Below, one piece after another: positions 11,818 to 43,425 of a DNA stretch of 56,867 nt; within the stretch, counting starts at the first letter, position 1, and every line of letters starts with the position of its first letter. The DNA is taken from the NCBI GenBank assembly GCA_017446685.1, contig JAFSQI010000114.1, forward strand, positions 1 to 56,867, written 5' to 3'. This DNA is from Butyrivibrio sp. Its GTDB lineage: Bacteria > Bacillota > Clostridia > Lachnospirales > Lachnospiraceae. The notes beneath the pieces were generated by a model that worked only from the letters and a program-made list of their open reading frames with translations, was not told where the DNA came from and did no database searches. Position numbers and translations under genes: made by a program.

Positions 11818-12141
11818 TCAGGACTGTTTTTTATATTTTACAACCATTTTGTAAATATAATATATTCCTACAACAACAGCACATATAATCGATACAATGA
11901 TCATCTTATCAATTTTCATGTGAATATAACCCAGCGATATAAAGCTTATGATAAGAAGCATCAAAAGCATCCAGGCAAATCCTATTGCAACAGATACAAA
12001 GAAAAACAAAAAATCCTTTATTATATCGCGGACATCCGGTTTTTCTTCATATTTCTCTTCGCTTACTTTTTTTGCTGCTTCTTTTAACCTTTCAACAGCA
12101 TCCTGGGTTTTATCGTTGTATATCTTTTTATCTTTACTCAT
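11818..12141 (-). CDS. Small membrane protein of unknown function
   Basis: The 107-residue protein has a charged, helical N-terminus (about 1-43, lysine/glutamate-rich) and then two hydrophobic segments (about 44-70 and 78-98), with a short basic tail. No family was recognised. Its ATG overlaps the TGA of the GH43 gene (ATGA), so it is translationally coupled to it and probably functions in the same unit. Whether it has anything to do with arabinan use is not shown by the sequence. Confidence 0.7.
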   Translation of the reverse strand: MSKDKKIYNDKTQDAVERLKEAAKKVSEEKYEEKPDVRDIIKDFLFFFVSVAIGFAWMLLMLLIISFISLGYIHMKIDKMIIVSIICAVVVGIYYIYKMVVKYKKQS

Positions 12142-13237: not shown

Positions 13238-13270
13238 TAAAAGGCGCCCCAGAAATCATTTCTGAGGCGC
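13238..13270 (-). terminator. Terminator after the arabinoside importer operon
   Basis: A 12-bp stem with one wobble pair (GCGCCTCAGAAA/TTTCTGGGGCGC on the minus strand) is followed by CTTTTA. The T tract is short, so some read-through into the GH43 gene is possible. The surrounding 13122-13388 holds no gene. It also contains two direct copies of TGTCGTTTGC (13195-13203 region and 13306-13315). Confidence 0.65.
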
Positions 13271-13388: not shown

Positions 13389-15923
13389 TCATTCTACTGA
13401 AAGAATCTCAATGAGACATTCCTCACAGGTAATGAGCATATAAACAGGATCTGTAGATGTCAGTGAGCTTGTCATAGAGGTCTTGCTTGTATATGTTTCT
13501 CCGTCAGCACCTTCAATGTTTGCATCAATTGTGATATCTCCGGCTTTTCTCTCAATTGTAAGAGTTACCTTCGCATCCTTCATAGCTGCAAGCCATGTTG
13601 CCCAATCATCGCCCCAGCTTGTCTCGTAAGTCTGAGCAAAAGTGTCATCCCAGCCGTATGCATCTGCTCTTACTGCTGCATACTCAACATGATCTGCACT
13701 TCCTGAGCCATCAGAATTAGGATTCTCATGTGCAGGTGTTTCTTCGTTTGTAAATACAAGTACGTAGTTGTCCCAGTTGTTTACACCATCAGAATAGTTA
13801 TTAAATGTAATTGTCTTTTTTCCTTCTGTGATCTCAATTGGTGTGCTCCAGTCTGTCCACCATGCATTGCTGTAATCTGCAGCTCCAACGCTTTCCACGT
13901 AATCTTCTACAGAAAGAAGTTCAAGATAGCACTCCTCACATGTGAAGAGGAAGTAAATTGGATCTGAAGCTGTAAGACTTGATTCAAGTGTTGTCTTATT
14001 GGTGTAGGAAACGCCTTTTGAATCAACAATTGTCGCATCCATAATGATGTTTCCGCCATCTCTTGTGATAAGCATGTTTACTGTTGCATTTCTCATTGAG
14101 TTAAGCCATGTTGCCCAGTCATCACCCCAGCTTGTCTCATAGGTCTGTGTAAATGTATCATCCCATCCGTAAGCGTCTGCTCTTACTGCTGCGTACTCAA
14201 CATGATCAGCACTTCCTGAACCGTCTGAATTAGGATTCTCATGTGCAGGTGTGTACTCATTTGTAAACATTACAACATAGTTATCCCAGTTGTTGATTCC
14301 GTCTGAGTAGTTGTTGAATCTTACTGCTTTTGTTTCACCGTCCTTAATTTCATAAGCCTCTGTCCAGTCTGTCCACCATGCGTTTGTAAGGCTGACATCA
14401 CCGATTGTATCAATAGCATTTGCAGCAGGCTCAATTGAGAATGGATCTTCTACACTTAAAATATCAATGTAGCACTTCTGACCTGTGATGTAGAAATAGC
14501 AAGGATCTTCTGCTGTAATATCTGCAGTTACCTTCATGGTCATCTGATTCTCAGTTCCGTTATAATCGACCATAACAGCATCTACGGTAATTATGTTATC
14601 TGCTCTTGAAATATTAAGAGTAACATCTGTCTCTCTCATAACCTGCTGAAGCCATGTATTCCAGTTGCCCCAACTATAATATGTCTCAAACTTGTCGGCA
14701 TTGTCTGTTGAGTTGGCATCAGGTGTCTCAGCATAAGCATCTGCACGTACAATTGCGTACTGCTTTGTTGCTGTTGCCATAGGATCCTTGTGTGCCTCAT
14801 TAGCTGCATCAACAAAGCCTACTGCAAAGTTGTCGGCTGAATCAGCCGCATCTGAGAAGTTTCTGAGTGTAACTACCTTGGTTGTTCCGTTTGCAAGTTC
14901 AAAGCCCTCTGACCAGTCACTGTCAGCTTCAAGTGAAAGATCTGTTGAACCGATTGAATCAAGTGCTGTCTCATCTGCATAAACTGTAAACTCATGTGCA
15001 GGTTCTTCATAGGCAACTGTTGTATCGCCTGCTTCATAGAGTGCTTTTACCTGAGAAGCATCAAGAGCATAGTCATATACATATACTTCATCAAAGGCAC
15101 CCTTCATGATGCTGTCCCAATAGTTGATACCAAGTAGGAAGTCAAAGTTATCGGAAGCCTCCATTGCACCTTTAACTATATTTACAGGTCTTGCATTACC
15201 GTCAGCATCTGTTCCCACAAGCTTTTCACCGTTCAGGTAAAGATCTGCAACCAGCAATGTACCATCTTCTGATACATTGGCAGGGTCAACAGTCATTGTA
15301 ACGTTTACCCATTCTCTTGTATGTGCATTAACTTCATCTGTATACCAGTTAGGCCATGGAGATCCTTCTGCATTCTGATCATATGCCCATACACTTGGGT
15401 AAGAAAGATCCTCAGAAGCCGGATTCCAGTTTGCCCAGGTGAAGTTTACATAATGCTGTCCGCCTGTAGCATCTCCGTGCATGTCCGGTCCAAACTGCAA
15501 TGTAGGCATATACTGTGCGTTTCTTGCGGCATATACCCAGAAGGATACTGTATAGGCATCGCCTACTCCGTTAATATCAAGCTTAAGTCCTTTATTTCCG
15601 TCTGTATAAGCGGCATTTCCCTTTACACCGGGAATATAAACCACTTCATCATCCGTTGTCTGGATCATTGGAGTAGCATTTGTATCGCGAACTGCTGTCT
15701 TAACTCCTTCTTCCCCACCATCCATTGAGAAGTAATATTTGTAATCCTGCGGAATTTCTGAAGCAGTAACTGTCTCAGCACTCTCTGCTCCTGTCTGCTC
15801 TGCTGACTGTGTTGTATCCGGTGCAGTTTCTGTAGTCTGGTTAGTTTCATTGCCACAGCCTGCCAAAATTCCGGCTACCATTGCTGAACTGAGTAAAAGT
15901 GATAAAAACTTTTTGTTCTTCAT
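13389..15923 (-). CDS. Surface lipoprotein with LamG-like domain and three repeated modules
   Basis: An 844-residue exported protein. It has a lipoprotein signal with lipobox LAGC (C23) and a Thr/Glu/Ser-rich linker to about 57. A concanavalin/LamG-like domain (about 60-298) ends in the typical FDEVYVYDYALDASQVKALY. Three repeats of about 166 residues follow (about 325-493, 508-673 and 678-844). Repeats 2 and 3 share a 32-residue identical block. Conserved features are NAWWTDW, the WDNY strand, RADAYGWDDTF, SWGDDWATWL and an acidic ending ILSVED. No catalytic motif is seen; glycan binding at the cell surface is inferred. It is 12 nt downstream of the binding-protein gene, so it belongs to the importer operon. 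Confidence 0.82.
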   Translation of the reverse strand: MKNKKFLSLLLSSAMVAGILAGCGNETNQTTETAPDTTQSAEQTGAESAETVTASEIPQDYKYYFSMDGGEEGVKTAVRDTNATPMIQTTDDEVVYIPGVKGNAAYTDGNKGLKLDINGVGDAYTVSFWVYAARNAQYMPTLQFGPDMHGDATGGQHYVNFTWANWNPASEDLSYPSVWAYDQNAEGSPWPNWYTDEVNAHTREWVNVTMTVDPANVSEDGTLLVADLYLNGEKLVGTDADGNARPVNIVKGAMEASDNFDFLLGINYWDSIMKGAFDEVYVYDYALDASQVKALYEAGDTTVAYEEPAHEFTVYADETALDSIGSTDLSLEADSDWSEGFELANGTTKVVTLRNFSDAADSADNFAVGFVDAANEAHKDPMATATKQYAIVRADAYAETPDANSTDNADKFETYYSWGNWNTWLQQVMRETDVTLNISRADNIITVDAVMVDYNGTENQMTMKVTADITAEDPCYFYITGQKCYIDILSVEDPFSIEPAANAIDTIGDVSLTNAWWTDWTEAYEIKDGETKAVRFNNYSDGINNWDNYVVMFTNEYTPAHENPNSDGSGSADHVEYAAVRADAYGWDDTFTQTYETSWGDDWATWLNSMRNATVNMLITRDGGNIIMDATIVDSKGVSYTNKTTLESSLTASDPIYFLFTCEECYLELLSVEDYVESVGAADYSNAWWTDWSTPIEITEGKKTITFNNYSDGVNNWDNYVLVFTNEETPAHENPNSDGSGSADHVEYAAVRADAYGWDDTFAQTYETSWGDDWATWLAAMKDAKVTLTIERKAGDITIDANIEGADGETYTSKTSMTSSLTSTDPVYMLITCEECLIEILSVE
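13392..14951 (-). repeat. Three tandem in-frame modules within the lipoprotein gene
   Basis: Module 1 spans about 14445-14951, module 2 about 13905-14402 and module 3 about 13392-13892. Modules 2 and 3 are clearly the more recent duplication. The blocks at 13638-13733 and 14151-14246 encode identical peptides and differ only at scattered, mostly third-position bases. This indicates duplication followed by selection on the protein. Confidence 0.85.
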
Positions 15924-15935
15924 ACCATCCTCCTG

Positions 15936-17537
15936 TTATTTTGTTCCAACCGGTCTTTCACCGATACCTGTCATAACACCACCTGCATCAACAACACTCT
16001 GATACCATGCTATTTCAGCATCATCAAGCACATCATATCCGTCTTTTCCAAAATAAGAAATCATGTAAAGTGCATGATAGTAGTTTGCCTGAAGGTTTGC
16101 TTCTTCAACATAGTCAGCAGCCTTTCCAAGTCCTTCATCAACGATATTGTGGATACCTGCTGATGAAACGCCTGCTGCGGTCTGTGAATTGAAGTACTGA
16201 TCACAGAAATTCCAATATCCTGCAATATTGTACCAACCATAAGGTACAGGTCTTGTCATGTTTTCAAAGAACTTATCCCAATATTCCTTGTGTTCAGCAT
16301 CCTGAGGGAACATAGCCTTATATGCTGTCCATACTTCTTCATCTGTTGTAAGAGGCATAGGCATGTTGGCTGCCTTAAGTGGAACACCTGAAGAGTTTAC
16401 ATTTGACTCATCAGAATAGATCTCAATTCTCTTTTTCCAACCATCAATACCCCAGTTCATGTACTTAAGAAGAAGGTATGACTCATAAGGATACTGTGTT
16501 GCATAAGATACACCGCCAAGGTACATGTTTCCAAGGACGTTGTGCTGCTTCTCGCCAGAAACTGAAGGAGTTACATATGGATAAATATCCATGTCATAAA
16601 GATCCTGGTAGTAAACTTTAGAACCATCTTCCTGTGTTACATATGTGTTCCAGATGTTCTGGAATGTCCACCAGCCCTCTGAGAATACTGCTACATGACC
16701 TGTTGCGCCAAAATACATTCCATAGTCGCCTGTCCAGTCTTCCATAGCCTGTGTATTCTGCTGAGGTGCAACATAACCGGCAAGCTTAAGGTCAGAGAAC
16801 TGCTGCTCACCTACTGCCCAATACTGAAGGTCAAAGTCTGTTCCGTCATAGCCGAACTCACCCTTAATTGTTCTCTCTGAGCTTGTAGCTGCTGAAATTC
16901 CGTAAAGTGAATCAAGACGGTTATAATAGCCAAGTCCGTAATACTTCATACCTGTTCTGTCATCTACTGTTGCAGCCTGAATAAGATTTATCATATCATC
17001 CCATGTCCAGTCAGGATCAGGCATTTCAAGATTGAGCTTATCAAGTACATTCTTGTCTACAAAAATTGCGCATGGCTGATACCATGTAGGCATCGCATAG
17101 CGGTGGTTCGTATCAAACATACCGATACCATATTCCTGAATTGTAGACATAAGCTTTTCTGTTTCAGGATCATTGTCAACATATTCTGTGATATCTGCCC
17201 ACCACTGATTTGCAAGTGATGTATCAGAATCAGTTGCAATAAACACATCCGGGAATTCATTATTGGAAGCTGCAGCGGTAAGATCTGTGCTCATATCTGT
17301 CATCTGCTTTACTTCTACTTTGATGTTCGGATATTGCTCTGTGAACGATTCAGCAAGCTGAGTCATCAAATCAAGATCCTCATATCCCCAATAACTAAGT
17401 GTGATATCGTCTTTTGTCACACCATTCTCATCAACTTCGCCGGATGGAGCGCCTGATGTGCTTCCGCAAGCTGTGAGTTGTGCAAGTACTGTCGCTGAAG
17501 TGAGCAGACCTGCAATGATTCTTTTGTACTTTTTCAT
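15936..17537 (-). CDS. Sugar ABC transporter substrate-binding lipoprotein
   Basis: A 533-residue family 1 extracellular binding protein. It has a signal peptide with lipobox LTAC (C24), then the usual start of the mature fold (ITLSYWGYEDLDLMTQLAESF) and ASNNEFPDVFIATDSD. Many tryptophan and tyrosine residues are typical of oligosaccharide binders. It follows two permease genes after a 94-nt gap that has no evident terminator, and precedes the LamG lipoprotein. An arabino-oligosaccharide ligand is inferred from the GH51/GH43 context. No ATPase gene is in the operon. Confidence 0.92.
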   Translation of the reverse strand: MKKYKRIIAGLLTSATVLAQLTACGSTSGAPSGEVDENGVTKDDITLSYWGYEDLDLMTQLAESFTEQYPNIKVEVKQMTDMSTDLTAAASNNEFPDVFIATDSDTSLANQWWADITEYVDNDPETEKLMSTIQEYGIGMFDTNHRYAMPTWYQPCAIFVDKNVLDKLNLEMPDPDWTWDDMINLIQAATVDDRTGMKYYGLGYYNRLDSLYGISAATSSERTIKGEFGYDGTDFDLQYWAVGEQQFSDLKLAGYVAPQQNTQAMEDWTGDYGMYFGATGHVAVFSEGWWTFQNIWNTYVTQEDGSKVYYQDLYDMDIYPYVTPSVSGEKQHNVLGNMYLGGVSYATQYPYESYLLLKYMNWGIDGWKKRIEIYSDESNVNSSGVPLKAANMPMPLTTDEEVWTAYKAMFPQDAEHKEYWDKFFENMTRPVPYGWYNIAGYWNFCDQYFNSQTAAGVSSAGIHNIVDEGLGKAADYVEEANLQANYYHALYMISYFGKDGYDVLDDAEIAWYQSVVDAGGVMTGIGERPVGTK

Positions 17538-17631: not shown

Positions 17632-18627
17632 TTATTCGCCGGTAATACCGGTTCTGTCTATGCTTTCCACAAAATGTCTCTGCATAAAGAAATACATGAT
17701 AAGCAGTGGCAGTATTGTAAGACTGGTGGCAGCCATTCTCACCGACTCATTAAGTGAAGTCATCGTTCCGCCGGTGGTTGCTCTGGATTCAAAGCTTGAA
17801 TCAAAATCTTTTAACTGTATAACAAGGTTGTTCCAGAAAGAATTGGAGTTGGCAATTCCTTTTACATACAGTTCTGTAAGATATGACTCATTCCAGTACC
17901 ATACAAAGCAGAAAAGAAATACTGTAAGTATTGCAGGTCCAGCTGAAGGAATCGCAATTCTGAAAAATGATTTCCAATATCCCGCACCGTCAATCTGCGC
18001 CGCCTCAAGCAGAACTTTAGGCACCTGCCTGAAAAACTGGTAAAAGATAAGTATGAATATTGGAGCATTCAGACCATTTGCCACAAGTGCCGGTAAAACA
18101 AATGCCCATATAGTTCCAGTCAATCTCATGTTACTGTAGAGAACATAGGTTGGAATCATTGTAACCTGGCTTGGAAGTATATAACTGAATATCAAAAGAG
18201 CCATCATCAGTTTTTTACCCTTGAATTCAAAGGTTGCAAATCCATAGCCTGTTATCATACAAGTAATAACACTTAAAACTGTAGGAACTCCGGCAATTAC
18301 AAAGCCCTTTAAAAGACTTGCCCAGAAATCCATCGACTTTGCTGCATCGATGTAGTTATCGATGTAGAGTCTGCTTGGAATCCACTTAACTGATGCATCA
18401 AGAAGATCTGCCTGATCCATAAAGCTTGTGCTGAACATATAAAACACAGGGTAAAGATATACAAAACCTATTGCTATAAGCAGCGCATATACTGCGAACT
18501 GTTTTAAAAAACCCTGTTTTTCTTTTGTTCCGAACATGAATCTGTGTATTTTTTCTTTAGTAATCCCCTGAGCCATCATACGTACGGAACTTACCACGTT
18601 TTCTTTGTTTTTCGATTCTCTTTGCAT
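17632..18627 (-). CDS. Sugar ABC transporter permease (MalG type)
   Basis: A 331-residue inner-membrane protein with about six membrane segments. It carries the EAA loop that contacts the ATPase: EAAQIDGAGYWKSFFRIAIP, then SAGPAI. The first 40 residues are a charged extension. The start at 18627 lies inside the preceding permease gene and overlaps it by 71 nt, but AAAGGAGG stands 11 nt upstream of this ATG. An alternative start at 18579 has a weaker site. It pairs with the permease just upstream. Confidence 0.92.
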   Translation of the reverse strand: MQRESKNKENVVSSVRMMAQGITKEKIHRFMFGTKEKQGFLKQFAVYALLIAIGFVYLYPVFYMFSTSFMDQADLLDASVKWIPSRLYIDNYIDAAKSMDFWASLLKGFVIAGVPTVLSVITCMITGYGFATFEFKGKKLMMALLIFSYILPSQVTMIPTYVLYSNMRLTGTIWAFVLPALVANGLNAPIFILIFYQFFRQVPKVLLEAAQIDGAGYWKSFFRIAIPSAGPAILTVFLFCFVWYWNESYLTELYVKGIANSNSFWNNLVIQLKDFDSSFESRATTGGTMTSLNESVRMAATSLTILPLLIMYFFMQRHFVESIDRTGITGE

Positions 18628-19612
18628 TCCTAGCAGACCTCCTTTCTACTCTCCTTGCGGCTCTCATTTCTTTCTTTTCCAGCTTCCTGCGCTTTTTTAC
18701 CATTCTGTCATAAACATCTTTCTTGGAACCTAGAAGAGCAAAGAATATAAGTACAATTGCTGTAACAAGAATTGAGTAAATCCATGCCATCGCTGATGCG
18801 TATCCATAACCTCTCTCCGCTGTTGCAGAGAACATTGCAGTTTTTATCAGGTTGATCAACTGATTCTGTTCATTGCTTGAGAGGAAAATTACTGTATATA
18901 CTGCATTTATTAATATCATGGGCTTTATGGTAGGTAAGGTTATCTTCCAAAAGCACTCCCAACCTGAACCACCATCCATCTTTGCCGCTTCATACAGTCC
19001 CGGATCAATTTTCTGCAAAGCTGACAGGAAAATAAGAATCTGCACTCCGGAATACCATAGAGTCATTATCATATTTCCAAATAGTGTGCCGAGCTGATTT
19101 GCAACTGCGGTAGGAAGGAACGTATCAAATGCACTTACAACCGCCTGTGTATTAAGAGCAGGAATTGAGGCAGCGCCTTCACTTACCAGCATGTTCATAA
19201 CCGGTCCTGAAACAATAATTACCGGAAGGAAAAATACAAGTCTGAAGAATCCTCTGAATTTAATCTTTCCGTTTAACATAATCGCAATGATCAGGGCAAA
19301 GACCACGATAATCGGAACCTGCAGCAGCGTCTGCCATACATATGAAGCTATTCCCTGAATAAAATCAGGATCCTCAATCCATATCTGCGTCAGATTCTGT
19401 GTTCCAACATAAGTAAACTGCAGACCGTTTCTGGCTTTTATTTTAAACCACATGTAGTAAAATGATTGAACCATTGGAATTAGTGTAAATACAAGCATTC
19501 CCACAAGCCATATAGACACAAAGGAATATCCGGCCAGCGCCTGTCTGCGCTCTAGTTTACCCAGCTTTGCCTGAGGATTTTTCTTTTTTAATTTTTTCCC
19601 AAAAACACTCAT
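18557..19612 (-). CDS. Sugar ABC transporter permease (MalF type) with basic tail
   Basis: A 351-residue permease with about six membrane segments and the EAA motif EAAKMDGGSGWECFWKITLP. After the last helix (about 300) it has an unusually long lysine/arginine-rich tail, VKKRRKLEKKEMRAARRVER and beyond, ending GKFRTYDGSGDY. The tail's final 24 codons overlap the start of the next permease. It follows the DUF5696 gene by 29 nt and forms a heterodimeric channel with the next permease, judged from gene order. Confidence 0.92.
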   Translation of the reverse strand: MSVFGKKLKKKNPQAKLGKLERRQALAGYSFVSIWLVGMLVFTLIPMVQSFYYMWFKIKARNGLQFTYVGTQNLTQIWIEDPDFIQGIASYVWQTLLQVPIIVVFALIIAIMLNGKIKFRGFFRLVFFLPVIIVSGPVMNMLVSEGAASIPALNTQAVVSAFDTFLPTAVANQLGTLFGNMIMTLWYSGVQILIFLSALQKIDPGLYEAAKMDGGSGWECFWKITLPTIKPMILINAVYTVIFLSSNEQNQLINLIKTAMFSATAERGYGYASAMAWIYSILVTAIVLIFFALLGSKKDVYDRMVKKRRKLEKKEMRAARRVERRSARNAKRIEKQRKRGKFRTYDGSGDY

Positions 19613-19641
19613 CCTGATCCTCCATAACGATGAGAATATTG

Positions 19642-21849
19642 TTACTTAATACAGTATGACATTGCATCCATCTGCACACCGTCAACTGTCTGTGACGACT
19701 GACTATAGTTGATATAGATCCTGGTTCCGTTACTGTAGGTTACTACTCTTACACTGTTATCAAGAATTACATGATCTACAATCGTTGCACCCTCAGTTTT
19801 TTCATAAATATCACGCAGCTCTGCATCATATTCGATTATTGTAGATTTGAATACATCATACTGCGAACTGTAAATATCACTTGAATTGGTGTTGATAAGC
19901 TCTGAAGACTCCTTTTGAGTGATATAGAAGGAAGGATAAACACCTGCTTCAACCATCTTTAAAAGGAACTCTTTTTTATTAGCCTCAAAATTTACATAAT
20001 CACCATACATCGGCACCACACCTTTTAACACAATTGAGAGAAATGGAATACTTTCATCCTCAATTATGTAATTTGAGGTATAGATCGGCATATCAAGAAA
20101 TGCTGTTGTGTATTTCCAGAGATATTCGCAGGGCTTTTCCAAAACAAGATTTGTGCTTTCTGACAGATCAGCTACAGTACTGTCGTAGCTTGATGCTGTA
20201 TCAAATCTTGTATATTTACTTCCACTGTAGGTATATGTAAATGTAGTGCTCGTAATACCTGCAAGAGCAAGATTATTTACACCCTTGCTTGCATAGCTCT
20301 TAACAAATTTATCTAAGAGATAGTCAGTTCTTGAAGGTGTCAGGTACATAAATGTGTCATATACGATAGCATGAGTTGTTGCTTCATATCTGCGCTTGTT
20401 GACCTGCTTTATTGTATTGAATGTAGCATTCTGCTCATCAGGATTTACCAAAAGAGCATCATTATATAAATAAACAGTATTGCCTTGTTCAGATGCCTCT
20501 TTTATAAACTTTGTAAGAGCGCTTGTTCCACCTATCTCGCTGTCTGCCTTGTATTTGCTGATTGGAAGATTGTATAAGCCGCCATCCTGCCAGCCTTTAT
20601 AAACAGTCAAAAGACCTGATACACCGTTTTTTTCTAAATCGGCATATATATTTTCTGCATCTTCCACAGTTGTCATTACTACAGGAGTAGTTGATAGAAG
20701 CCAGTTTTCTCTTTCTGTTCCAAGGAAATCAACTCTTGTTTTATAGGATGTATCAGTTTGAACAATCTGTCCGTTTTCAAGAAGATAATCTCTGTAAGCA
20801 TTTGCCATTCCTGCATAGGTTGCATCTTTTCCCGAAAGGAAGATGAAGTGAACCTGAAGATCCGAATGACTCCTGTCATCCTCATAAACATGAAGTGAAC
20901 CTGTTGTGGAATTGACACTGGTAGGCTGATTATAGGTTTTTCTTAAAACAAATCTTGCATAAGCCCTGTTATAGCCAACACTGACTCCGTTTGGCATCAC
21001 ATCAATAGAAGCTCTCTCTTCGCCTTCTTCAACAATTCCAAGGAAAGCGATTTGATCATCGGTGTGAGCTATTCCATATATAGGTGCAAAAACCTGTTCT
21101 GCATCTGTAATTGTATTGTATTTGTCCCACAAAAGCGTTTCCGCTGTGGATTCCTCAAATCCTATATCAGTTCCATATATAACTCCTGAATATCCACTGG
21201 AGTATCTACCCTCTTTATCATCGAGATAAATCAGCGCTCCATTTCCATCAGGAACAAGCATATAGCCTTCTTTTTCATCCAGGTATGAGTTTCCCATAAA
21301 CGGATAGATTCTTACTGTTCCGATATAGTACTGCGTTCCATCCTCTTTTATTGACTCCTCAGGAATCCTTGCCACAACACCGTCATCGGTAAGTGTAACT
21401 TCAAGCGTCATTCCGATTTTTAGCTTCGTCCAATATATTTCAGCCGTAAATCCATTTTCGTTGTAAGTTACTGTTTTGGTGTTTTCGTCGTTGATAAGGT
21501 CAGCCTGCGTCGTATCCGAATTATTATTTATCAGAGAAAGAACTATCGCTGATTTCATGGCACCAAGCCAGATATTATTGCTGTTGCCGTCATCATAGCT
21601 TATGGATGATTCCATGTAGCTTCCGGTGTTCTTATCCTCCACAACTAAAGACAGATCTTCTTCATTAACATACAATCTGTATCCGGAATTTTCCGCCAGA
21701 AACTTATGACCATTTATATCACTCTGAGCGCTTGCAGTAACTACTGTTTCAAAATTCCCTATGGAAAAATCTCCTGCAATTGCCGAAATCCCTATTGCGG
21801 CGGCGGTTATTAAGCCGAATATTTTTTTACATGAATACTTATGAGCCAA
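19642..21849 (-). CDS. Secreted DUF5696 family protein
   Basis: A 735-residue exported protein with a signal peptide (basic start, hydrophobic core about 10-26, possible cut near TASA). It then has a beta-rich N-terminal half (about 45-330) followed by an alternating strand/helix half (about 360-640) that looks like a TIM-barrel glycosidase, for example GVSGLLTVYKGWQDGGLYNL. DUF5696 has no established activity. The start is read as TTG 21849: it follows GAGAGGTGG and overlaps the end of the upstream gene by 11 nt, whereas the longer frame to 21927 encodes no sensible signal peptide. It sits between the propeller/Yip1 gene and the second permease pair. A novel glycosidase or glycan-binding role is a hypothesis. 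Confidence 0.82.
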   Translation of the reverse strand: MAHKYSCKKIFGLITAAAIGISAIAGDFSIGNFETVVTASAQSDINGHKFLAENSGYRLYVNEEDLSLVVEDKNTGSYMESSISYDDGNSNNIWLGAMKSAIVLSLINNNSDTTQADLINDENTKTVTYNENGFTAEIYWTKLKIGMTLEVTLTDDGVVARIPEESIKEDGTQYYIGTVRIYPFMGNSYLDEKEGYMLVPDGNGALIYLDDKEGRYSSGYSGVIYGTDIGFEESTAETLLWDKYNTITDAEQVFAPIYGIAHTDDQIAFLGIVEEGEERASIDVMPNGVSVGYNRAYARFVLRKTYNQPTSVNSTTGSLHVYEDDRSHSDLQVHFIFLSGKDATYAGMANAYRDYLLENGQIVQTDTSYKTRVDFLGTERENWLLSTTPVVMTTVEDAENIYADLEKNGVSGLLTVYKGWQDGGLYNLPISKYKADSEIGGTSALTKFIKEASEQGNTVYLYNDALLVNPDEQNATFNTIKQVNKRRYEATTHAIVYDTFMYLTPSRTDYLLDKFVKSYASKGVNNLALAGITSTTFTYTYSGSKYTRFDTASSYDSTVADLSESTNLVLEKPCEYLWKYTTAFLDMPIYTSNYIIEDESIPFLSIVLKGVVPMYGDYVNFEANKKEFLLKMVEAGVYPSFYITQKESSELINTNSSDIYSSQYDVFKSTIIEYDAELRDIYEKTEGATIVDHVILDNSVRVVTYSNGTRIYINYSQSSQTVDGVQMDAMSYCIK

Positions 21850-23911
21850 ATTTATACACCACCTCTCTGACAACTGACTGCAGGAAGTCGAATACCTGTG
21901 CCCAAAGGACGTACAAAATAAAGGCAATCAGGCAAACAATCAAAATTGTAAATAATGTAAGGAAAATAATCTTTGCTGTCTCTCCCACTGTATATTGGTT
22001 GATCTCTCGTATTGAAATCACCACCAAAACAGCAATCCAAACTATCATGCAGAAGGTTCCAAAACTTACAAAGAACTCTTCATTGTAAGTAACGATATGT
22101 GAAAGAATAAATATAAACGGCATCAATATCACATAAGGAGCAAAGCAATAAATGAAAGAGCAGTAAATATGCTTAAGCTTGCCCTCACCATCATTGATAG
22201 TACACATCAGATAATTACATCCAACTACAAGTGCCAGGGCCACAAGAACCAAGCCTACATCCGAAACAACATCAAATGTTCCCTCTCTTACAGTCTTAAA
22301 CAAAAATCCACAAAAATACTTGTTTATTACGTAGAAGATAATCACAAGAGCAAGAATAATGTTGGTTGATAAAAGTGATACTCTGTTCTCCCACTTGATT
22401 CCATAGCATCCGTCTATAGGATGTCTGATAAAATAGAACATGTATCCAAGCTCTTTTACCAGTTTCTTTTCCTTTATTGCAGCTATAAGAGCTCTTGGCT
22501 TATCGAGAATCTTTTTCTTCTCATCAAGCTTCCTTATAATGAATCTTAGAACAAATAACGTAAGGATAATGATAGCAATAGCTGTCAGATTTCTTCTTAG
22601 CCAGTTATTTCTGATTTCCCAAAAGGCATCTGAATATGTGTCAAGATCTATTGAAAGCTTGGAATAATGAAGCGCTCCTTCATAATCCTCTTCCTTGTAA
22701 AGAGCTTTACCCATTGCCTTGTTGGCATAGTCAAAGAGGTTGTTCATCTCCAGAACCTCAGATAACGGTTCCTTGCTCTCCTCATATCTTCCCTTTGAGA
22801 AAAGATAAAGTGCCTCGTGAAGATAGTCTGTAAACTCGGTAGGTTCATAAATCTGAATCTGAGCTTTATCAGAATCAAGAACGTATATCTTGTCATCAGT
22901 GCCTACCTGAATTGCCTCTGCTTTGGTTGAAAGACCGATTCGAAGCTGTCCGTCATCCTTTCCACCAAATACAAATAAAAGCTCGCCTTCGTTGTTATAC
23001 TCATATATAAATCCCTGCTGCGATACCACGAAGCAGTTGTCGTGATTTCCTACTGCTATAGCCGCCGGTACTGTATCATAATCGCTTGCTTCAAGCATAT
23101 TTACGCCGGCTATGTTTAGTCTTTTTACTGTTCCGCTTCCTTCACCTCTTGTTACGGTGTAGATGATTCCCTTATCATCTATTGCCATATTATCCGGTGT
23201 TGAAGGTATATTGGATCTCATCTTTGCTCTCTGGGCATCAGTAAGAACCGCTCTCCAGATAATATTGATAAGACTTGAGTTTGTAGAGTTTGTACCAAAG
23301 TACCCAAGGAATGTTCCATTGTCCACAGGACTTATTTCTACAACACCATTTGTATTTGATTCGCAGATTACATACATTGTTCCCGCTTCATTTACTATTA
23401 CCTTAAGCGGAAGGAAATCCTGTGTCTCACCATACATTGGAACATCCGGTCTTCCGTACGAATTTATCAGATTTCCATCTTCGTCAAAAACAAATATCGC
23501 CTTGGCATCCCTGTCTGCAACATAGGTAATATGCTCATCCGTTACGAAAATTCCTCTAGGAGTAACAAGAGTTCCCTCGCCGAAGCTCTTTATCAGATTA
23601 CCCTCAAGATCCGCAACAACAACTCTGGCATTTCCGCTGTCAAGGATATACATTGTTCCGTCATCAAGTAGCGTAAAATCTGTCGGCCCGTTTAATGTAT
23701 CCTCACCAATCTTGGTAATTGTTTCATAAGGAAGATAAGCTGTTTGTGTCTCTGAAACAGAACCATATCCATCGACTGTATAGGTCTTGTAAGGCGCATC
23801 GGCATGTGCTGTGATTCCTGACACTGAAAGTGTTAGCGCTGCTGCCACAAGGGCTGATGCCACCAGCTTTATAAAGTTCTTTTTTTGTCCCATCGTACTT
23901 TTGTTTCTCAC
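21839..23911 (-). CDS. Membrane protein: NHL-type beta-propeller, TPR and Yip1-like domain
   Basis: A 690-residue protein. It has a signal peptide (about 1-38, ending SGITAHA) and an NHL/SMP-30-like six-bladed propeller outside the cell (about 60-360; repeated units such as DDGTMYILDSGNARVVV, then LEGNLIKSFG). A TPR-like helical pair (about 370-425) and one membrane segment (about 437-457) follow. The C-terminal Yip1-like region (about 490-690) contributes five more membrane segments. The start is GTG 23911 with AGAGGA seven bases upstream. It lies 38 nt after a permease and overlaps the DUF5696 start. It may couple extracellular glycan binding to the importer; that is inference from position. 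Confidence 0.82.
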   Translation of the reverse strand: MRNKSTMGQKKNFIKLVASALVAAALTLSVSGITAHADAPYKTYTVDGYGSVSETQTAYLPYETITKIGEDTLNGPTDFTLLDDGTMYILDSGNARVVVADLEGNLIKSFGEGTLVTPRGIFVTDEHITYVADRDAKAIFVFDEDGNLINSYGRPDVPMYGETQDFLPLKVIVNEAGTMYVICESNTNGVVEISPVDNGTFLGYFGTNSTNSSLINIIWRAVLTDAQRAKMRSNIPSTPDNMAIDDKGIIYTVTRGEGSGTVKRLNIAGVNMLEASDYDTVPAAIAVGNHDNCFVVSQQGFIYEYNNEGELLFVFGGKDDGQLRIGLSTKAEAIQVGTDDKIYVLDSDKAQIQIYEPTEFTDYLHEALYLFSKGRYEESKEPLSEVLEMNNLFDYANKAMGKALYKEEDYEGALHYSKLSIDLDTYSDAFWEIRNNWLRRNLTAIAIIILTLFVLRFIIRKLDEKKKILDKPRALIAAIKEKKLVKELGYMFYFIRHPIDGCYGIKWENRVSLLSTNIILALVIIFYVINKYFCGFLFKTVREGTFDVVSDVGLVLVALALVVGCNYLMCTINDGEGKLKHIYCSFIYCFAPYVILMPFIFILSHIVTYNEEFFVSFGTFCMIVWIAVLVVISIREINQYTVGETAKIIFLTLFTILIVCLIAFILYVLWAQVFDFLQSVVREVVYKFGS

Positions 23912-23949
23912 GAATACGTCCTCTTTTATTTGTAACCCTTTTTGCTCTT

Positions 23950-24828
23950 TTACTTGATTCCTGAATGTGCCATTGTGTTCATTACGTTCTTTTGTAAGAT
24001 ACAGAAAAGTATCAGATTAGGCAAAAACATAATGAGTGAAGCTGCTGCCGCCACACCTTGTCCGGCTACTGTATTGGTTGTAGTTGTAGATGTCAGTGTG
24101 TTCATGTAAAACGCAAGACTCTTAAGAGAATCATCATTGATGTAATAATTGGATGTCTCAAGGTTGGTCCATACCTGCTGGAAAACCAGAATTGCCGCAG
24201 TTGCGATAGCAGGCTTTATAAGTGGAATTATTACCTTTAGATATATTTGCCACTCTTTTGCTCCGTCCATATAAGCCGCCTCAATCAGAGAGTCCGGAAC
24301 CTGATCAACGAACTGTTTTACCAGGAAAAGACCTACAGGAAGCGCTATTAGCGGAAGAATCTCAGCCCAGTAGGTATCGATCATTCCAAGCTTATTTACT
24401 ACAAGATATCTTGGTATCATTACCGCAACCGATACAAACATAAGTGCTATCTGATTTATCTGCATCATTACATTTCTTCCCTTAAATTTCAGCTTTGACA
24501 AAGCATATGCTGCCATCGTTGAAAACAAAAGAGATCCAAACACAACTACCGCAGTTATAAAGATACTGTTAAACACATACTTGCTTATCGGTATTCCGGC
24601 ACTTCTTGAAGCTTTGATCAGCTTTCTGAAATTATCCAGCGTCGGGTTTGTAGTTATAAACTTAGGAGGGAATGCAAAAAGCTCCTCCATTGGCTTGAAT
24701 GCATGAAATATAATGAAAACTATCGGAAGTCCGGTTAAAAGAACCATCGGCAAAATTAAAAGATAAATCTTAATCTGACTTTTTTCGAACTTATCCGGAT
24801 TTGTTCTATGTCCTCTGTATGCTGCCAT
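23950..24828 (-). CDS. Sugar ABC transporter permease (MalG type)
   Basis: A 292-residue permease with six membrane segments and the ATPase-contact EAA loop EAAYMDGAKEWQIYLKVIIP. The family C-terminus ends NVMNTMAHSGIK. It is 18 nt downstream of its partner permease and follows the large binding protein, so the three should form the first importer of this operon. Confidence 0.94.
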   Translation of the reverse strand: MAAYRGHRTNPDKFEKSQIKIYLLILPMVLLTGLPIVFIIFHAFKPMEELFAFPPKFITTNPTLDNFRKLIKASRSAGIPISKYVFNSIFITAVVVFGSLLFSTMAAYALSKLKFKGRNVMMQINQIALMFVSVAVMIPRYLVVNKLGMIDTYWAEILPLIALPVGLFLVKQFVDQVPDSLIEAAYMDGAKEWQIYLKVIIPLIKPAIATAAILVFQQVWTNLETSNYYINDDSLKSLAFYMNTLTSTTTTNTVAGQGVAAAASLIMFLPNLILFCILQKNVMNTMAHSGIK

Positions 24829-24846
24829 ATCTCACTCCTTAATAAA

Positions 24847-25758
24847 CTAATCGTTATCGCCAAACAGCTTTGTTGATACTGATGAGAATATCTGAACTAT
24901 CAGAAGAAGTACTACGGAAACTGCTGCCGCATATCCCATCTCATATCTGATAAAGCCGTAATCTTCGATATGGTTTACGATAAGCTGTCCCGCATAACCA
25001 GGTGTAGGATTTCCCGCAAGAAGCGTTGAAATCATACCGTTTTGGAAAGCACCTACAATCTGCATTACCGCAGCAAACAGCATCTGTGGTTTCATACTTG
25101 GTATCGTCACATATATCATTTCCTGGAATCGGTTCTTTACTCCATCTATAGCTGCCGCTTCGTAAAGAGCTTCATCTACATTTAAAAGACCTGCAAGGAT
25201 TGACAAAAATCCTACGCCCATGCTGCTCCACAAACCAATGATAATTATTATCGGAAGCAGAAAATTGGTGTTGGTCAGCCAGATAATCGGTTCATTTATC
25301 GCCCCGATATCCATAAGCCAACTGTTGAGATATCCTGTCTGATCTCCGGTAAACATTATCTTCCAGAGAACTGCCATAGCAACACCGGTTGTCATGCTTG
25401 GAGAATATAGAATAAGAGCAAATACTGTTCTTGGTCCTTTTGTCAGATTTGAAAGTCCCCATGCAAGGAGGAATGCCAGTACATACCCTCCGACACCGAC
25501 TATAAGCGCATACTTTACAGTGTTCGGTAAAACATATTTCATAAATACATCATCCCCTGTTATCAGGTTGATGTAATTTAAGAATCCCACAAAGCTCGGC
25601 CACTGAATAGCATTAAAGTTTGTAAATGACAGAACAACCGCCATAATAACCGGAGCAAGGATAAAAAGTATGAATAGGATTGCATATGGAGCCACGAACA
25701 CATAACCGTTTTTATTTGAATGCATTCGTTGTCCGACTTTGGTTTTTACTGGTGACAT
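24847..25758 (-). CDS. Sugar ABC transporter permease (MalF/UgpA type)
   Basis: A 303-residue inner-membrane permease with about six membrane segments. The EAA motif is [21 protein letters not shown]. It lies 25 nt after the large binding-protein gene and 18 nt before the second permease. No ATPase follows, so an ATPase encoded elsewhere, such as the one at 40372-41472, must drive transport. Confidence 0.94.
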
Positions 25759-25783
25759 TTTTGTTTACCTTTCTTGAATAACC

Positions 25784-28700
25784 CTATCTTCCTAAAATCT
25801 CTCTGACTTTTTCAACCGAAGGTGTTATGTATTCTTTCAATACATTCCCCTCGCTATCTATATATCCGAATTCCTCAAGCTTACGCTCAGTTTCTCTCTT
25901 GACTGTCTTAACTGCTTCATCGATTCTCGATCTGACAGAATCACCGTTTACAACTATGTCATTAAAAGCGTTACTGGTTTCACGCTCCATCATATATCCA
26001 CCAAGAAGTCTTGGTGCTTCAAGCATGTACTTTGCCTGCTCGATGATGATTTCTTTATCATCTGTAGGATATGGAAGAGCAGAGAATGCTTCGAGGTTTG
26101 CAGTTGGCCAGATGTATTCATCTCCGTACAGAATCTGAAGTCTTTGTCCAAACTCTGCCTGTACTTCAGCAGTTGACCACCAGTCCATAAATTCCCATGC
26201 CTGCTGTTCTCTTTCTTCATTGGAGTGGAACATTACAGTGCTCTCTGCGCCGCCTGCTGTGTACCTAAGGATTTCTCCTGTTTCTTCATCCTCAACACCC
26301 GGAATCAGTGAAATGTCCCATGAGTTTGCGATTTCCGGTGCCGCATTAAGTATCAGGTTGTAAGCATTGAAATCTGCAATTCCAATCGGAAGATCTCCGT
26401 TTCTAAAGTGCTGATAGAAGTTCGGTACATCTACCGGAAGGTTATAAAGAGTAAATAGCTCTGTAAGCTGTGTAAAGCCTTCGACTGTTTCTTCAGAATC
26501 AAGTTCTATATCAAGCGCTGTATCTCCATACAGTTCACCGCCATTTTGATAAATTAACGGTGTTGTTCCGTGATAGTTTCTCATTGCAAGCATTGAGGCT
26601 GTAGGATAATAAACATTTAGTCCTCTCATCTGGAGATCTGTCAGCATTCCTACAAGTTCATCCATGGTATCGGGTATTTCAAGTCCGAGTTTTTCAAGGA
26701 TGTCACTTCTGTAAAACAAAACATAGAAGTTCATGGTTTCCGGAAGAGAGTATAATCCGTCATCCACTACAGAAGGAACAAGAAGGCCTTCGCTGTATCT
26801 TCCGAAAACTTCTTTATAGTTGTCGAACTGAGTAAGATCTACAAGAGCTCCTCTTATCGCCAGATCAAACGGAATTGAATAATTTATTCCTGTTGCAATA
26901 TCAGGTGTATCTCCTGACGCATTTGAAAGAATCAGTTTCTGAGCGTCTGTCATAAGACAGAGATCTACTTCAATTCCTGTTTGCGGAGTAAACTGTTCGT
27001 CTATCATTTTCTGCATGATTTCAACATACTGTCTCGGTCTGTTTACCCACACCTGTATGTGTTCTTCATTTGTATTACTTGCAGAATATGACTGTCCAAA
27101 GAAAGAATTTATAAATCTTGAAATATTCATTCCTATTGATGAAAAGAATGATAATCCCTTAGGAAGCTTTGCTCCTGACTGATAAATATAAATTCTGTCT
27201 ATTGAAAGATTATTGTTTCCTATAATATCTACAAAGTTGGCAATCTGTGTATTGATTGAGTTTACGCTGGTTGAAAGTTCATCAACTCTGTATACCAGCT
27301 CATCAGGTTCTTCAGCCAGGCTCTCAAGCTGATCTGCCGCAATAAGCAGATATGAAAATGCTGCAACATCATCTGCACTCTTCGCATCAACATAAACAGT
27401 TGCCTTTTCTGCAAGCTCCCTGAGTTCACTTATCCAGGTATTTAATCTTTCCTCAAGATCAGGGATATATCTTGTAAGCTTTAAGTCTCTGTACTTATCT
27501 TTATTGGTTCCTGCAACTTTTGTAACATCCAGTGAAAGATCTGAAATACCACTCATGATCTCATCCACTTTTTCAACCGCATATCTTATCTCATCCTGAA
27601 CTATCATCAGAGAAATGGTATGTGTTCCGGCTTCAAGATATACACTTAGCGCATTACCATCATCATCTGAAAAAGTCTTTGTAGTAAAATCTGTGGAAGC
27701 TTCTATGCTATAACTTTCAAACGCTGTATTTGGAACTTTACCGTCAATGCTGATGTCTGCAAAAACGGGGAAATCATTTTTTTCTGATTGTCTGTAATTC
27801 ATAGCCAGGTTGTAATAACCTGCTGTCTTAACCTCAAATGAGTATGTAACTTTTTGTCCTGCTGTATCAAAAGATTCTTCATCTATTATGTTAAGAACCT
27901 TTTCTTTTGCTGAGAGGGGGCTGAGTGCACTGTCATATTCATATGCAGCATGAATTGAAGAATCATTTCTCTCAGCGAAATTCTCCGCTTCAATTGTAAT
28001 TAGTTCTGAACCTTCTGCTTTTTCCGATCCTGAATAATCTTCAGTACTCTGCGGCGAGGTCAGTGTCAGATTTCCTAAAAGAAGCGTTCCCTCTTTTACC
28101 TTGATTCCAAACTCATGCTCACCTGCTGTAAGTTCCAGCTTAAGCGGTGTTGAGTATCTATAACTGGCATCTCCAAGATATTTACTTTCCCATCTCATGA
28201 GCTTATCCGGAAGTGATACAATTTCATTGCCATATCTGTCTACATCTGCATCTTCTTCCTGAACCCAGGTAGTCTCAAAGCTAAGGCTTCTGGCTTCATA
28301 AAACGGATATTCACCATCGACAGTAAACGCAAGCTCTATAGGGAGAATTGATTCATCATAGGATAAATAATCGAATGATAACCAATAAAGACCATCTTCT
28401 GGTACTTCTACACTAAGTGTCAGCTCATCTCCGTGCGCAATATCTGCAACTTTACTTCCATATTCGTGGTTATCACTTGTGAGATAGTCTCTTCCGGTTT
28501 TTAAGTCTTTTTCGACGTTGATCACAACATCACTGCCCGTATAATCAGTTTTGGTATAGCCCTCGCTTATATGCGTATAGTTGGTCGAAAGTCTCTCAGT
28601 ACTTGTAACTTCATCAGTTACAAGTACTTCAATCTCTTCATCGCTTAGCTCATTGGCTGCATCTTCGATACTCTCTTTTTGAGCATCAGCCTCCTCATTA

Positions 28701-28843
28701 AGTGATAAGGATTCTGATGCGCTATCGGATGCACTGTCTGTTGCATAAGCTGTCAATGCTCCGCTAAAAGATCCAAAGCACAGACATGCACAAAGGCTAA
28801 TCCCCAGTACTTTTTGCAGTTTCTTTATGTTACCTGTGATCAT
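25784..28843 (-). CDS. Giant sugar-binding protein: two beta-sandwich domains fused to an ABC binding domain
   Basis: The protein is 1019 residues, about twice the usual length. It has a signal peptide (cut likely after TAYA, about residue 34; no clear lipobox) and an acidic linker (about 37-95). Two carbohydrate-binding-module-like beta-sandwiches follow (about 96-265 and 282-425; the second begins ITIEAENFAERND, as CBM6/35-type domains do). A helical, coiled-coil-like spacer (about 425-560) leads to a family 1 solute-binding domain (about 595-960). It lies between the GH51 gene and two permease genes in one transcript. The fused modules may dock the binding domain to polymer or to the neighbouring propeller protein. 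Binding specificity is inferred only from the arabinofuranosidases. Confidence 0.88.
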   Translation of the reverse strand: MITGNIKKLQKVLGISLCACLCFGSFSGALTAYATDSASDSASESLSLNEEADAQKESIEDAANELSDEEIEVLVTDEVTSTERLSTNYTHISEGYTKTDYTGSDVVINVEKDLKTGRDYLTSDNHEYGSKVADIAHGDELTLSVEVPEDGLYWLSFDYLSYDESILPIELAFTVDGEYPFYEARSLSFETTWVQEEDADVDRYGNEIVSLPDKLMRWESKYLGDASYRYSTPLKLELTAGEHEFGIKVKEGTLLLGNLTLTSPQSTEDYSGSEKAEGSELITIEAENFAERNDSSIHAAYEYDSALSPLSAKEKVLNIIDEESFDTAGQKVTYSFEVKTAGYYNLAMNYRQSEKNDFPVFADISIDGKVPNTAFESYSIEASTDFTTKTFSDDDGNALSVYLEAGTHTISLMIVQDEIRYAVEKVDEIMSGISDLSLDVTKVAGTNKDKYRDLKLTRYIPDLEERLNTWISELRELAEKATVYVDAKSADDVAAFSYLLIAADQLESLAEEPDELVYRVDELSTSVNSINTQIANFVDIIGNNNLSIDRIYIYQSGAKLPKGLSFFSSIGMNISRFINSFFGQSYSASNTNEEHIQVWVNRPRQYVEIMQKMIDEQFTPQTGIEVDLCLMTDAQKLILSNASGDTPDIATGINYSIPFDLAIRGALVDLTQFDNYKEVFGRYSEGLLVPSVVDDGLYSLPETMNFYVLFYRSDILEKLGLEIPDTMDELVGMLTDLQMRGLNVYYPTASMLAMRNYHGTTPLIYQNGGELYGDTALDIELDSEETVEGFTQLTELFTLYNLPVDVPNFYQHFRNGDLPIGIADFNAYNLILNAAPEIANSWDISLIPGVEDEETGEILRYTAGGAESTVMFHSNEEREQQAWEFMDWWSTAEVQAEFGQRLQILYGDEYIWPTANLEAFSALPYPTDDKEIIIEQAKYMLEAPRLLGGYMMERETSNAFNDIVVNGDSVRSRIDEAVKTVKRETERKLEEFGYIDSEGNVLKEYITPSVEKVREILGR

Positions 28844-28920: not shown

Positions 28921-30426
28921 TTAAATATCAAATGCAAGATGTATTACACTGCTGGCAGGAATTGATAAAGAAGCTTCTCCTTCTTCTCCAAGCTTTACTT
29001 CATCAAATTTTCTTAATACTACGTTTTCGGGCTCATCGAAGGTATTGTGAAGGTGCATCTCACCACCTACGATTTCTCCTGTAACACCCTTTAACTGTGT
29101 ATCTGCAACTAAAATTTCAATATCATAATTTTCTTCGCAGGAAAGGTTAGTAATTGTCGCATGAATCTTTCCATCTGTTCCAATTGAAACTGACTCGGTA
29201 AGGTTTGGTACCATGTATTCGTCAACAAGTCCAATCTTCTTTGTCTCAATGTAGCTGTCAAGAAGCTCTGCATCCTGATGATATTTGTACATATTGAAAA
29301 CATGATAGGTAGGAGTTTTTATCATCCTCTCGCCATCTGTAAGGATAACTGCCTGAAGTACATTTATCATCTGTGCAATGTTTGCCATCTTTACTCTGTC
29401 ACAGTGCTTGTTGAAGATATTGAGATTTATTCCTGCTACGAGAGCGTCTCTTATTGTATTCTGCTGATATAGGAATCCAGGATTTGTTCCCGGTTCACAG
29501 TCATACCAGGTTCCCCATTCATCCACGATAATTCCGACTTTATGTTCTTTATCGTACTTGTCCATGATTGCCTGATGCTTTGTAATAAGCTCTTCCATGT
29601 AAAGAGTCTTAGAAAGCGTCTGATACCACATCTTCTCATCAAAATCCAGTGCACTTCCTTTGTGCTCCCATCCGCCCGGATGAGTGTAATAATGTAGTGA
29701 AAGGCCATCCATAAAACCATGCATCCAGGGTGCCTGTGCAAAGGTTGTTCCCATTACACCTTCAGTCCAGTTGTAGTCATCTACATTTGCTCCGCAGGCA
29801 ACTTTAAAAAGATGTTCTCCCTGCTTGTAGTCTCTTACATATGTCTGATATCTGCGATAGAGTCCTGCATAGTATTCCGGTGGCATATTTCCGCCGCATC
29901 CCCAGTTTTCATTTCCTACTCCAAAATAATCAACTTTCCATGGGCTCTTATGTCCGTTCTTTTCTCTTAGATCAGCCATAGGAGATACTCCGTCGAATGT
30001 CATATATTCAACCCACTCCTGCATCTCCTGAACTGTACCGCTTCCTACATTTCCGTTAACATAATTTTTGCATCCAAGCTGGTCACAAAGTTCCATGAAT
30101 TCATGTGTTCCAAAGCTATTGTCCTCAACGACTCCGCCCCAGTGAGTATTGATCATCTTTTTGCGATTTTCCTTTGGTCCGATACCATCCTTCCAATGGT
30201 ACTCATCAGCAAAACATCCTCCGGGCCAACGAAGAACCGGAACTTTCAATTCCTTAAGTGCCTCAACAACATCCTTTCTCATTCCGTTGACATTGTCGAT
30301 ATTGTCACCTTCTTTTACATATAATCCTTCATAGATTCCTCTTCCAAGATGTTCAGAAAAATGTCCCTGTATTTCCGGATTGATATGTCCCTTATGAATT
30401 CTGGGATTTATACACAGCTTGAACAT
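28921..30426 (-). CDS. abfA: GH51 alpha-L-arabinofuranosidase
   Basis: The 501-residue enzyme removes terminal arabinofuranosyl groups from arabinan or arabinoxylan oligosaccharides. Catalytic residues are visible: acid/base E173 in GNENWGCGG and nucleophile E303 in [24 protein letters not shown] is also typical of the family. The C-terminal part (about 385-501) is the beta-sandwich. No signal peptide is present, so it is cytoplasmic. It is the first gene of the importer operon, with AAAAGGAG ahead of its ATG. A promoter and palindrome lie 70-120 nt upstream. No terminator is seen in the 77 nt before the giant binding-protein gene. Confidence 0.95.
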
Positions 30427-30553: not shown

Positions 30554-30592
30554 ATAAAAAAATTGGACAGATTTTTATGCAATCTGTCCAAT
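30554..30592 (-). terminator. Terminator after the hybrid histidine kinase gene
   Basis: An 11-bp perfect stem ATTGGACAGAT/ATCTGTCCAAT (30592-30582 and 30572-30562) is followed on the minus strand by seven T residues. It separates the two-component genes from the GH51 operon. The rest of 30593-30710 shows no gene. Confidence 0.85.
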
Positions 30593-30710
30593 TATATATC
30601 CAAAATATTTAATCACCTCAAAATACATTCGGCATTGTTTATATATTGTCAATGTTTAACGTTTTACTCTATTACTTTAATTAGAGTTAAAAAATATTTA
30701 AATAAATATA

Positions 30711-33644: not shown

Positions 33645-33677
33645 GTGAATTACAGCCTCCATAATCAGACAGCAGCA

Positions 33678-39471: not shown

Positions 39472-39484
39472 TGGATTGCCTCTT

Positions 39485-41472: not shown

Positions 41473-41499
41473 ACTCTTAAAATCCTCCAAAGGTAAAAA

Positions 41500-43359: not shown

Positions 43360-43425
43360 ATATATTTCTTTCAACTCCCAAAATTGGATAAAACTAATGC
43401 ATTTTACGTAAAAATGTGCGAAAAT

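Follow-up and report, generated by a model that had tools for sequence, protein, structure and literature searches.

A seven-gene block with two ABC permease pairs and a DUF5696 protein in Butyrivibrio: a candidate composite importer for complex oligosaccharides

Why would two pairs of ABC permeases be encoded together with a glycosidase-like protein and a Yip1-type membrane protein? This question is raised by a contig of Butyrivibrio sp. (Lachnospiraceae; GCA_017446685.1, JAFSQI010000114.1), called the window below, which is the whole stretch of 56,867 nucleotides that was analyzed. On its minus strand (17632-28843) a block of seven genes encodes, in order, a long solute-binding protein (long SBP, SBPL), permeases A and B (PA, PB), an NHL/Yip1 protein, a DUF5696 protein and permeases C and D (PC, PD), and a short SBP is usually encoded nearby. 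It is rather probable, in our judgment, that these genes together specify a composite ABC importer of the CUT1 type, whose cargo is complex and often branched oligosaccharides. The short SBP with PC/PD would form a substrate-specific import path, SBPL with PA/PB would be an importer or an engine common to several such halves, and a shared MalK/MsmX-type ATPase, encoded elsewhere, would energize all of them.

Conservation of the block and copy numbers of its halves

An even sample of 398 genomes from across the phylum was searched with the DUF5696 profile (PF18952), and up to three places were scored in each genome. The profile exceeded the cut-off in 39 genomes and gave a long, strong match in 37, which span 19 genera and 15 families; this count of 37 leaves out genomes with weak matches, two of which (G302 and G325) exceed the Pfam cut-off. 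Six weak matches that were scanned proved to be alpha-amylase-type (three), DUF6259 (two) and GH129 (one). Apart from the window there are 57 strong places; 40 of them, from 33 genomes, were fetched and mapped in six frames with hidden Markov models (HMMs) built from the window plus these same 40 loci, the order being taken among core genes on the strand. The NHL/Yip1 gene comes next before DUF5696, and PC-PD next after it, in all 40 loci. SBPL-PA-PB stand before them in 26 loci and after permease D in six, and were unseen in eight, of which L041, L044, L045 and L072 show more than 8 kb upstream and the others 1.2-5.2 kb. PC/PD are hence linked to DUF5696 more tightly than the first permease pair (40/40 vs 32/40 loci). 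Named genomes gave at least 592 matched stretches, at least 570 of them confirmed; among the best 80, nearest to the window protein, the seven genes occur in order in all 57 loci with enough room (7 kb or more before, 2.5 kb or more after). The named hosts include Butyrivibrio, Ruminococcus albus 8, Butyribacter, Bacillus, Fictibacillus and Gracilibacillus.

Co-occurrence was also approached from the partner proteins. Two alignments were searched in the same 398 genomes, one covering the NHL/TPR part (A5) and one the SBPL N-terminal half (A6). At E <= 1e-20 they matched 40 and 44 genomes, and both sets contain all 37 DUF5696 genomes (the SBPL match in G103 being a fragment where a contig begins). 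The test value of these searches lies in the DUF5696 genomes other than those that gave alignment rows and in the 361 genomes without DUF5696, three of which match A5 and seven A6. The strongest of these ten, G104 and G154 (SBPL) and G243 (NHL), lie on contigs of 3788, 4307 and 8538 bases with genes cut at the edge. These three rows were dropped, and so were weak ones, five for A6 (G007, G054, G093, G127, G157; best E 5e-34 to 1e-51, open reading frames (ORFs) of 396-561 aa) and two for A5 (G368, G382; E 4e-23 and 7e-21). The hypergeometric values of the strong sets, 4e-50 by genome and 4e-27 by genus, serve for orientation only, as genomes are not independent.

The first-pass annotation of the window had pictured a four-part unit around one importer at 19642-28843. 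The ORF list and Pfam scan confirmed SBPL, the NHL/Yip1 protein, the DUF5696 protein and permeases at their positions, and the condition set beforehand as refuting, no co-occurrence beyond close relatives, did not apply, the parts standing together in 15 families of the sample. The boundary was given up, because PC-PD follow DUF5696 in all 40 phylum loci; there are two permease pairs, and PC/PD lie outside that interval. The general idea of a cell-bound glycan-handling importer still fits, the layout of a single four-part importer does not.

How the two permease pairs relate to each other is indicated by copy numbers. All copies were counted in eight genomes, fragments included, and the DUF5696:SBPL ratio is 10:4 in G062, 8:4 in G165, 10:4 in G135, 3:3 in G101, 1:1 in G240, 11:6 in G040, 19:9 in G082 and 4:4 in G342. 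DUF5696 genes without an SBPL gene on the same strand within 10 kb number, in the same order, 7, 5, 7, 1, 1, 6, 13 and 0. All seven genomes that contain such orphans also have at least one SBPL away from DUF5696; G342 has neither. Lone SBPL-PA-PB loci (L167, L169, L170, L171, L173, L174) were mapped in G062, G101, G040, G165, G135 and G240, leaving out the most fragmented genome, G082; on contigs of 53-148 kb, their flanking genes on both sides match none of the HMMs. Across the 51 non-redundant loci that contain all eight genes, mean pairwise identity is 57% for PA, 53.5% for PB, 34% for DUF5696 and 29% for the short SBP. Mainly because of the copy numbers, and less so the identities, the data suggest that SBPL-PA-PB serve as a common half and NHL/Yip1-DUF5696-PC-PD-short SBP as halves each specific to a substrate. 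A bolder form of this proposal, which we regard as possible but doubtful, would unite both permease pairs in a single membrane supercomplex, where the shared SBPL-PA-PB engine docks interchangeable NHL/Yip1-DUF5696-PC-PD receptor halves, the pseudo-glycosidase of each capturing a particular large glycan.

The same genes could instead encode two ordinary CUT1 importers that work independently, SBPL-PA-PB on one side and PC-PD with the short SBP on the other. The operon would then also contain DUF5696 as an exo-glycosidase of GH129 type, trimming oligosaccharides outside, and a membrane protein of some side function. The EAA loops of all four window permeases suit such importers. However, the NHL/Yip1-DUF5696-PC-PD linkage holds in 40/40 loci although the neighboring enzymes vary, and there are genomes in which SBPL stands apart from DUF5696 units, so that this explanation is considered unlikely.

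Proteins of the block and their proposed roles

The window DUF5696 protein matches PF18952 over positions 2-612 of the 612-position profile (579.8 bits vs a cut-off of 25.6, E 9e-174). Its listed ORF begins at 21927, and the probable start is the TTG at 21846, which overlaps the preceding stop by 8 nt. The fold is of the GH129 type, with a beta-sandwich, a TIM barrel and a C-terminal beta domain; comparison of DUF5696 profiles with a GH129 protein (hhalign) gave an alignment only across the C-terminal domain. Pfam PF11308 (Glyco_hydro_129) is absent among the matches of the window protein at E up to 0.1. A PF11308 search of 299 genomes gave no match either, which is no evidence, since the controls were silent and a G325 protein matches PF11308. 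The comparison of catalytic acids covered Asp435 of NagBb, which equals Asp486 of DagB, and Glu517 of DagB. With positions assigned by eye and from spacing, nine of 30 diverse DUF5696 sequences (A1) and three of 52 from the window clade (A3) carry acids both at 528-531 and at 570. The absence of a PF11308 match and the unconserved candidate acids led to rejection of the protein as a GH129 enzyme, and in both respects it differs from the GH129 glycosidases DagB/ZgGH129 (5opq) and NagBb (5wzn). An exo-glycosidase is favored by the GH129 fold and by E570, which is kept in 43 of the 52 window-clade sequences, but there is no family-wide acid pair. Because the candidate catalytic acids appear unconserved, DUF5696 may bind glycans as a receptor instead of cutting them, and the trimming once ascribed to it is doubtful. 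It is proposed to be a membrane-anchored extracytoplasmic receptor that re-uses a GH129-like fold, without the usual acid pair in the window clade.

The NHL/Yip1 protein had been annotated as propeller/TPR/Yip1. Its NHL repeat (PF01436, 30.6 bits vs 20) and Yip1 domain (PF04893, 30.6 vs 28.6) exceed their cut-offs; TPR stayed below, both in the window protein (TPR_2, 13.5 vs 27 bits, E 0.085) and in L033 (20.9 vs 27). In 18 of 40 phylum loci the Yip1 part (within residues 481-688) has an ORF of its own. This protein would act as a membrane organizer with the propeller outside. The SBP domain of SBPL is above the Pfam cut-off (E 1e-19), as is that of the short SBP, and occupies about residues 590-996 of the structure model (mean predicted local distance difference test score, pLDDT, 83). 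The two beta-sandwich domains thought to be added to it appear in the model as two beta-rich N-terminal regions, with strands within 132-262 and 281-414, followed by a helical stretch (420-542); Pfam gives them no identity above cut-off. CBM_35 was rejected at 22.3 bits vs 28, and a GH115_C match also stayed under its cut-off (19.7 vs 24.1 bits). Fold comparison matched the SBP domain only, a comparison that barely covered the N-terminal regions. No lipobox was found in the window SBPL, and nine of 94 SBPLs across loci have one.

The four window permeases have BPD_transp_1 domains besides their EAA loops; across loci, the EAA pattern failed in 34/96 PA, 1/94 PB, 24/109 PC and 10/109 PD. A short SBP gene with the same orientation was seen in 30 of 40 phylum loci and 67 of 80 named-genome loci. 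No MalK/MsmX-type ATPase is present among the genes of the block; the Butyrivibrio genome has one OB_MalK ATPase, on another contig, and a MalK-type gene occurs in five loci of set 2. ORFs with Walker-A/LSGG motifs in L143 and L037 were rejected as MalK, being other ABC-domain proteins without OB_MalK.

The gene run in the window and its surroundings

The coordinates of the run are collected in Table 1. Between consecutive genes from GH51 (a glycoside hydrolase, GH) to the 844-aa lipoprotein gene the gaps are 77, 25, 18, 38, -8, 29, -71, 94 and 12 bases. A hairpin scan found no terminator-like hairpin at the gene junctions between 30593-30561 and 13270-13244; its count for hairpins (12 vs 10.2 in shuffles) is no excess, and promoter-like sites are fewer than in shuffles (46 vs 55.4). 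One transcript from GH51 to the lipoprotein gene is plausible from this arrangement, with GH51 likely its first gene.

Table 1. Positions of the genes and hairpins of the run in the window
Feature	Positions	Strand	Evidence and remarks
Terminator-like hairpin upstream of GH51	30561..30593	-	
GH51 alpha-L-arabinofuranosidase	28921..30426	-	PDB best match 2vrk, E 3.5e-203; Pfam Alpha-L-AF_C; hydropathy
SBPL, 1019-aa binding protein	25784..28843	-	Pfam, structure model, hydropathy
Permease A (PA)	24847..25758	-	EAA loop present
Permease B (PB)	23950..24828	-	EAA loop present
NHL/Yip1 protein: NHL (and weak TPR), hydrophobic segment, Yip1 membrane domain	21839..23911	-	
DUF5696 protein, 734 aa	19642..21846	-	GH129-like fold; N-terminal hydrophobic segment; no lipobox found
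Permease C (PC)	18557..19612	-	EAA loop present
Permease D (PD)	17632..18627	-	EAA loop present; listed start overlaps permease C
Short SBP	15936..17537	-	Lipoprotein-type signal LTAC
844-aa lipoprotein, repeated C-terminal units	13389..15923	-	Signal LAGC; no Pfam match
Terminator-like hairpin, 12 pairs, 7 G-C	13244..13270	-	
GH43 enzyme, beyond the 13270-13244 hairpin	12138..13121	-	Near solved structures named arabinofuranosidase/xylosidase

Just upstream of GH51, on the same strand (30711-34376), lie genes for a hybrid histidine kinase with receiver and Hpt domains and for a LytTR response regulator, a pair that may regulate the operon. Another kind of ABC-domain protein occupies this place in the close relative L143. 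The pair also bears on the idea that SBPL-PA-PB, NHL/Yip1 and DUF5696 form a nutrient sensor with a little-transporting permease pair, transport being left to PC/PD and the short SBP. Such a sensor would suit the position of the kinase and also the identities, with conservation highest in PA/PB and lowest in the short SBP. However, the few regulators noted beside other loci vary in kind (AraC in L042; LacI-like, by eye, in L046, L050, L071 and L147; no search aimed at a conserved regulator was made), and the sensor is considered improbable.

In the C-terminal repeat of the 844-aa lipoprotein, 257-nt copies are 80% identical and spaced by 513 nt. L143 has a counterpart of 844 aa as well, and ORFs of 500-990 aa occupy the same place, judged by position, in many Lachnospiraceae loci; a surface glycan-binding role is possible. 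Outside the block, the window contains a second ABC importer (SBP 36966-38558, permeases 38599-40375) with its own ATPase (40372-41490), a RACo-type protein with a C-terminal ASKHA domain and a 2Fe-2S domain (41713-43443), and an FRG-domain protein on the opposite strand (35185-35988). The same genome has two further full cassettes, L052 (contig C93) and L071 (contig C10), divergent from that of the window and with split NHL and Yip1 genes; L052 is flanked by a GDSL esterase gene and L071 by the LacI-like gene.

Cargo, related systems and meaning

The enzymes encoded beside the block, hand-picked from the loci, vary. GH51 and GH43 in the window are replaced by GH26 in L034 and L046, GH106 in L041, GH30 in L037, an apiosidase, GH31 and a fucosidase in L045, WbsX in L050, and GH43-CBM proteins in L056 and L060. 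A Glycoamylase-family enzyme, which we take to be GH144-like, is found in L147, L149 and L152, with GH35 in L147 and a SOGP-type phosphorylase in L152; on account of the Glycoamylase-family enzyme and the phosphorylase, beta-1,2-glucan is suggested as cargo of the Bacillus-type loci. The window cargo probably consists of arabinofuranose-containing oligosaccharides, as judged from the GH51 and GH43 neighbors only. Near the N-terminus, 12 of the 15 enzymes checked show no stretch of 12 residues with hydropathy above 2, which suggests that depolymerization is often finished inside the cell. Neither GH51 nor GH43 of the window has an N-terminal hydrophobic stretch; GH51 is probably cytoplasmic, and the two would finish the imported arabinofuranosides there. 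Recycling of the cell's own envelope glycans, rather than import of dietary ones, could be argued from the membrane-anchored proteins and the wide distribution of the block; it is very improbable, since the neighbors are polysaccharide enzymes that change with the locus, and the related Caldicellulosiruptor bescii locus is reported to be induced on xylan (PMC8579813, in extract).

The block is partly known in one bacterial group, as two transporters. The Caldicellulosiruptor/Anaerocellum xylan locus (Athe_0174-0185) has, as published, the same order, an SBP with two permeases, X, GH129, two permeases with an SBP, and xynF; the extract of the report gives the operon as xloEFG-X-GH129-axoFGE-xynF-xynE-xynD-xyn10A-xynX-xynB, lists it among operons whose expression differs on xylan and Avicel, names XynR and AraR as regulators and describes MsmK as the ATPase common to CUT1 transporters (PMC8579813). 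XynR is stated to bind an XDL operator upstream of Athe_0174, with a 14-gene target (PMC12285236). L060 resembles this locus by architecture, compared with the published gene string alone: after the block come genes for an SBP (601 aa) and for a GH43-CBM-CBM6 protein (1370 aa) like XynF (Csac_2411, 1347 aa; PMC5658599). The xylan locus differs from the window in substrate, that of the window being probably arabinofuranosyl, and in its description as two transporters, with no function given in the extract for X or GH129 (PMC8579813). In Paenibacillus O199, proteins labeled GH129 and CBM35 were reported exclusively on crystalline cellulose (PMC4867992, in extract). Among the matches listed in the literature search, nothing was found on the block as a unit, on a GH129-like fold with unconserved acids or on the copy-number pattern, and no paper found names DUF5696.

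With CUT1 importers that share MsmX/MsmK, such as A. bescii Athe_0595-0598 with MsmK (PMC12838199, in extract), the block has in common EAA-loop permease pairs, an SBP and, probably, an ATPase encoded elsewhere. It differs from them in its two permease pairs with NHL/Yip1 and DUF5696 as companions, and its SBPL is about 1000 aa long and mostly without a lipobox. Bacteroides take up glycans by SusC/D-type systems with a TonB-dependent outer-membrane transporter. The block is like these in working only, by surface capture of long glycans before import, and differs in having ABC-type permeases instead of a TonB-dependent transporter; Pfam scans of the window proteins named neither such a transporter nor SusD, with no search aimed at them.

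Several points weigh against the composite importer. It is read from genes and models. In the partner searches, 20 of the 37 DUF5696 genomes (A5) and 18 of the 37 (A6) gave alignment rows and match by construction. Draft genomes can yield false orphans, G082 above all. Only PA/PB stand out as constant, as SBPL identity (40%) is no higher than that of NHL/Yip1 (41%), and the distance matrices correlate at 0.91-0.98, values inflated by common ancestry that descent alone could give. The catalytic positions of DUF5696 were placed by eye and spacing, and at positions so placed D538 with D/E570 occurs in 11 of the 30 A1 sequences (0/52 in A3), which also favors the exo-glycosidase. The L149 Glycoamylase-family enzyme, outside the 15 checked, looks exported (hydrophobic N-terminus by eye). 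In the extracts of the published work, XloEFG and AxoFGE of C. bescii are each named as a transporter, with a GH129 between them (PMC8579813), as the reading with two independent importers has it; PMC12285236 assigns xylo-oligosaccharide uptake to yet another transporter, XynUVW.

The genes are present in about one in eleven sampled genomes of the phylum (37/398), and G062 has ten copies of DUF5696. Among the named carriers are Lachnospiraceae of rumen and gut and R. albus 8. For DUF5696, so far a family of unknown function, the analysis supplies a fold, a set of accompanying genes and, at each locus, a hint at the substrate. The import of large plant glycans, and the question why glycosidase-like and Yip1 proteins accompany permeases, become testable. 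If the supercomplex were true, it would be a modular, plug-in Gram-positive counterpart of SusCD systems.

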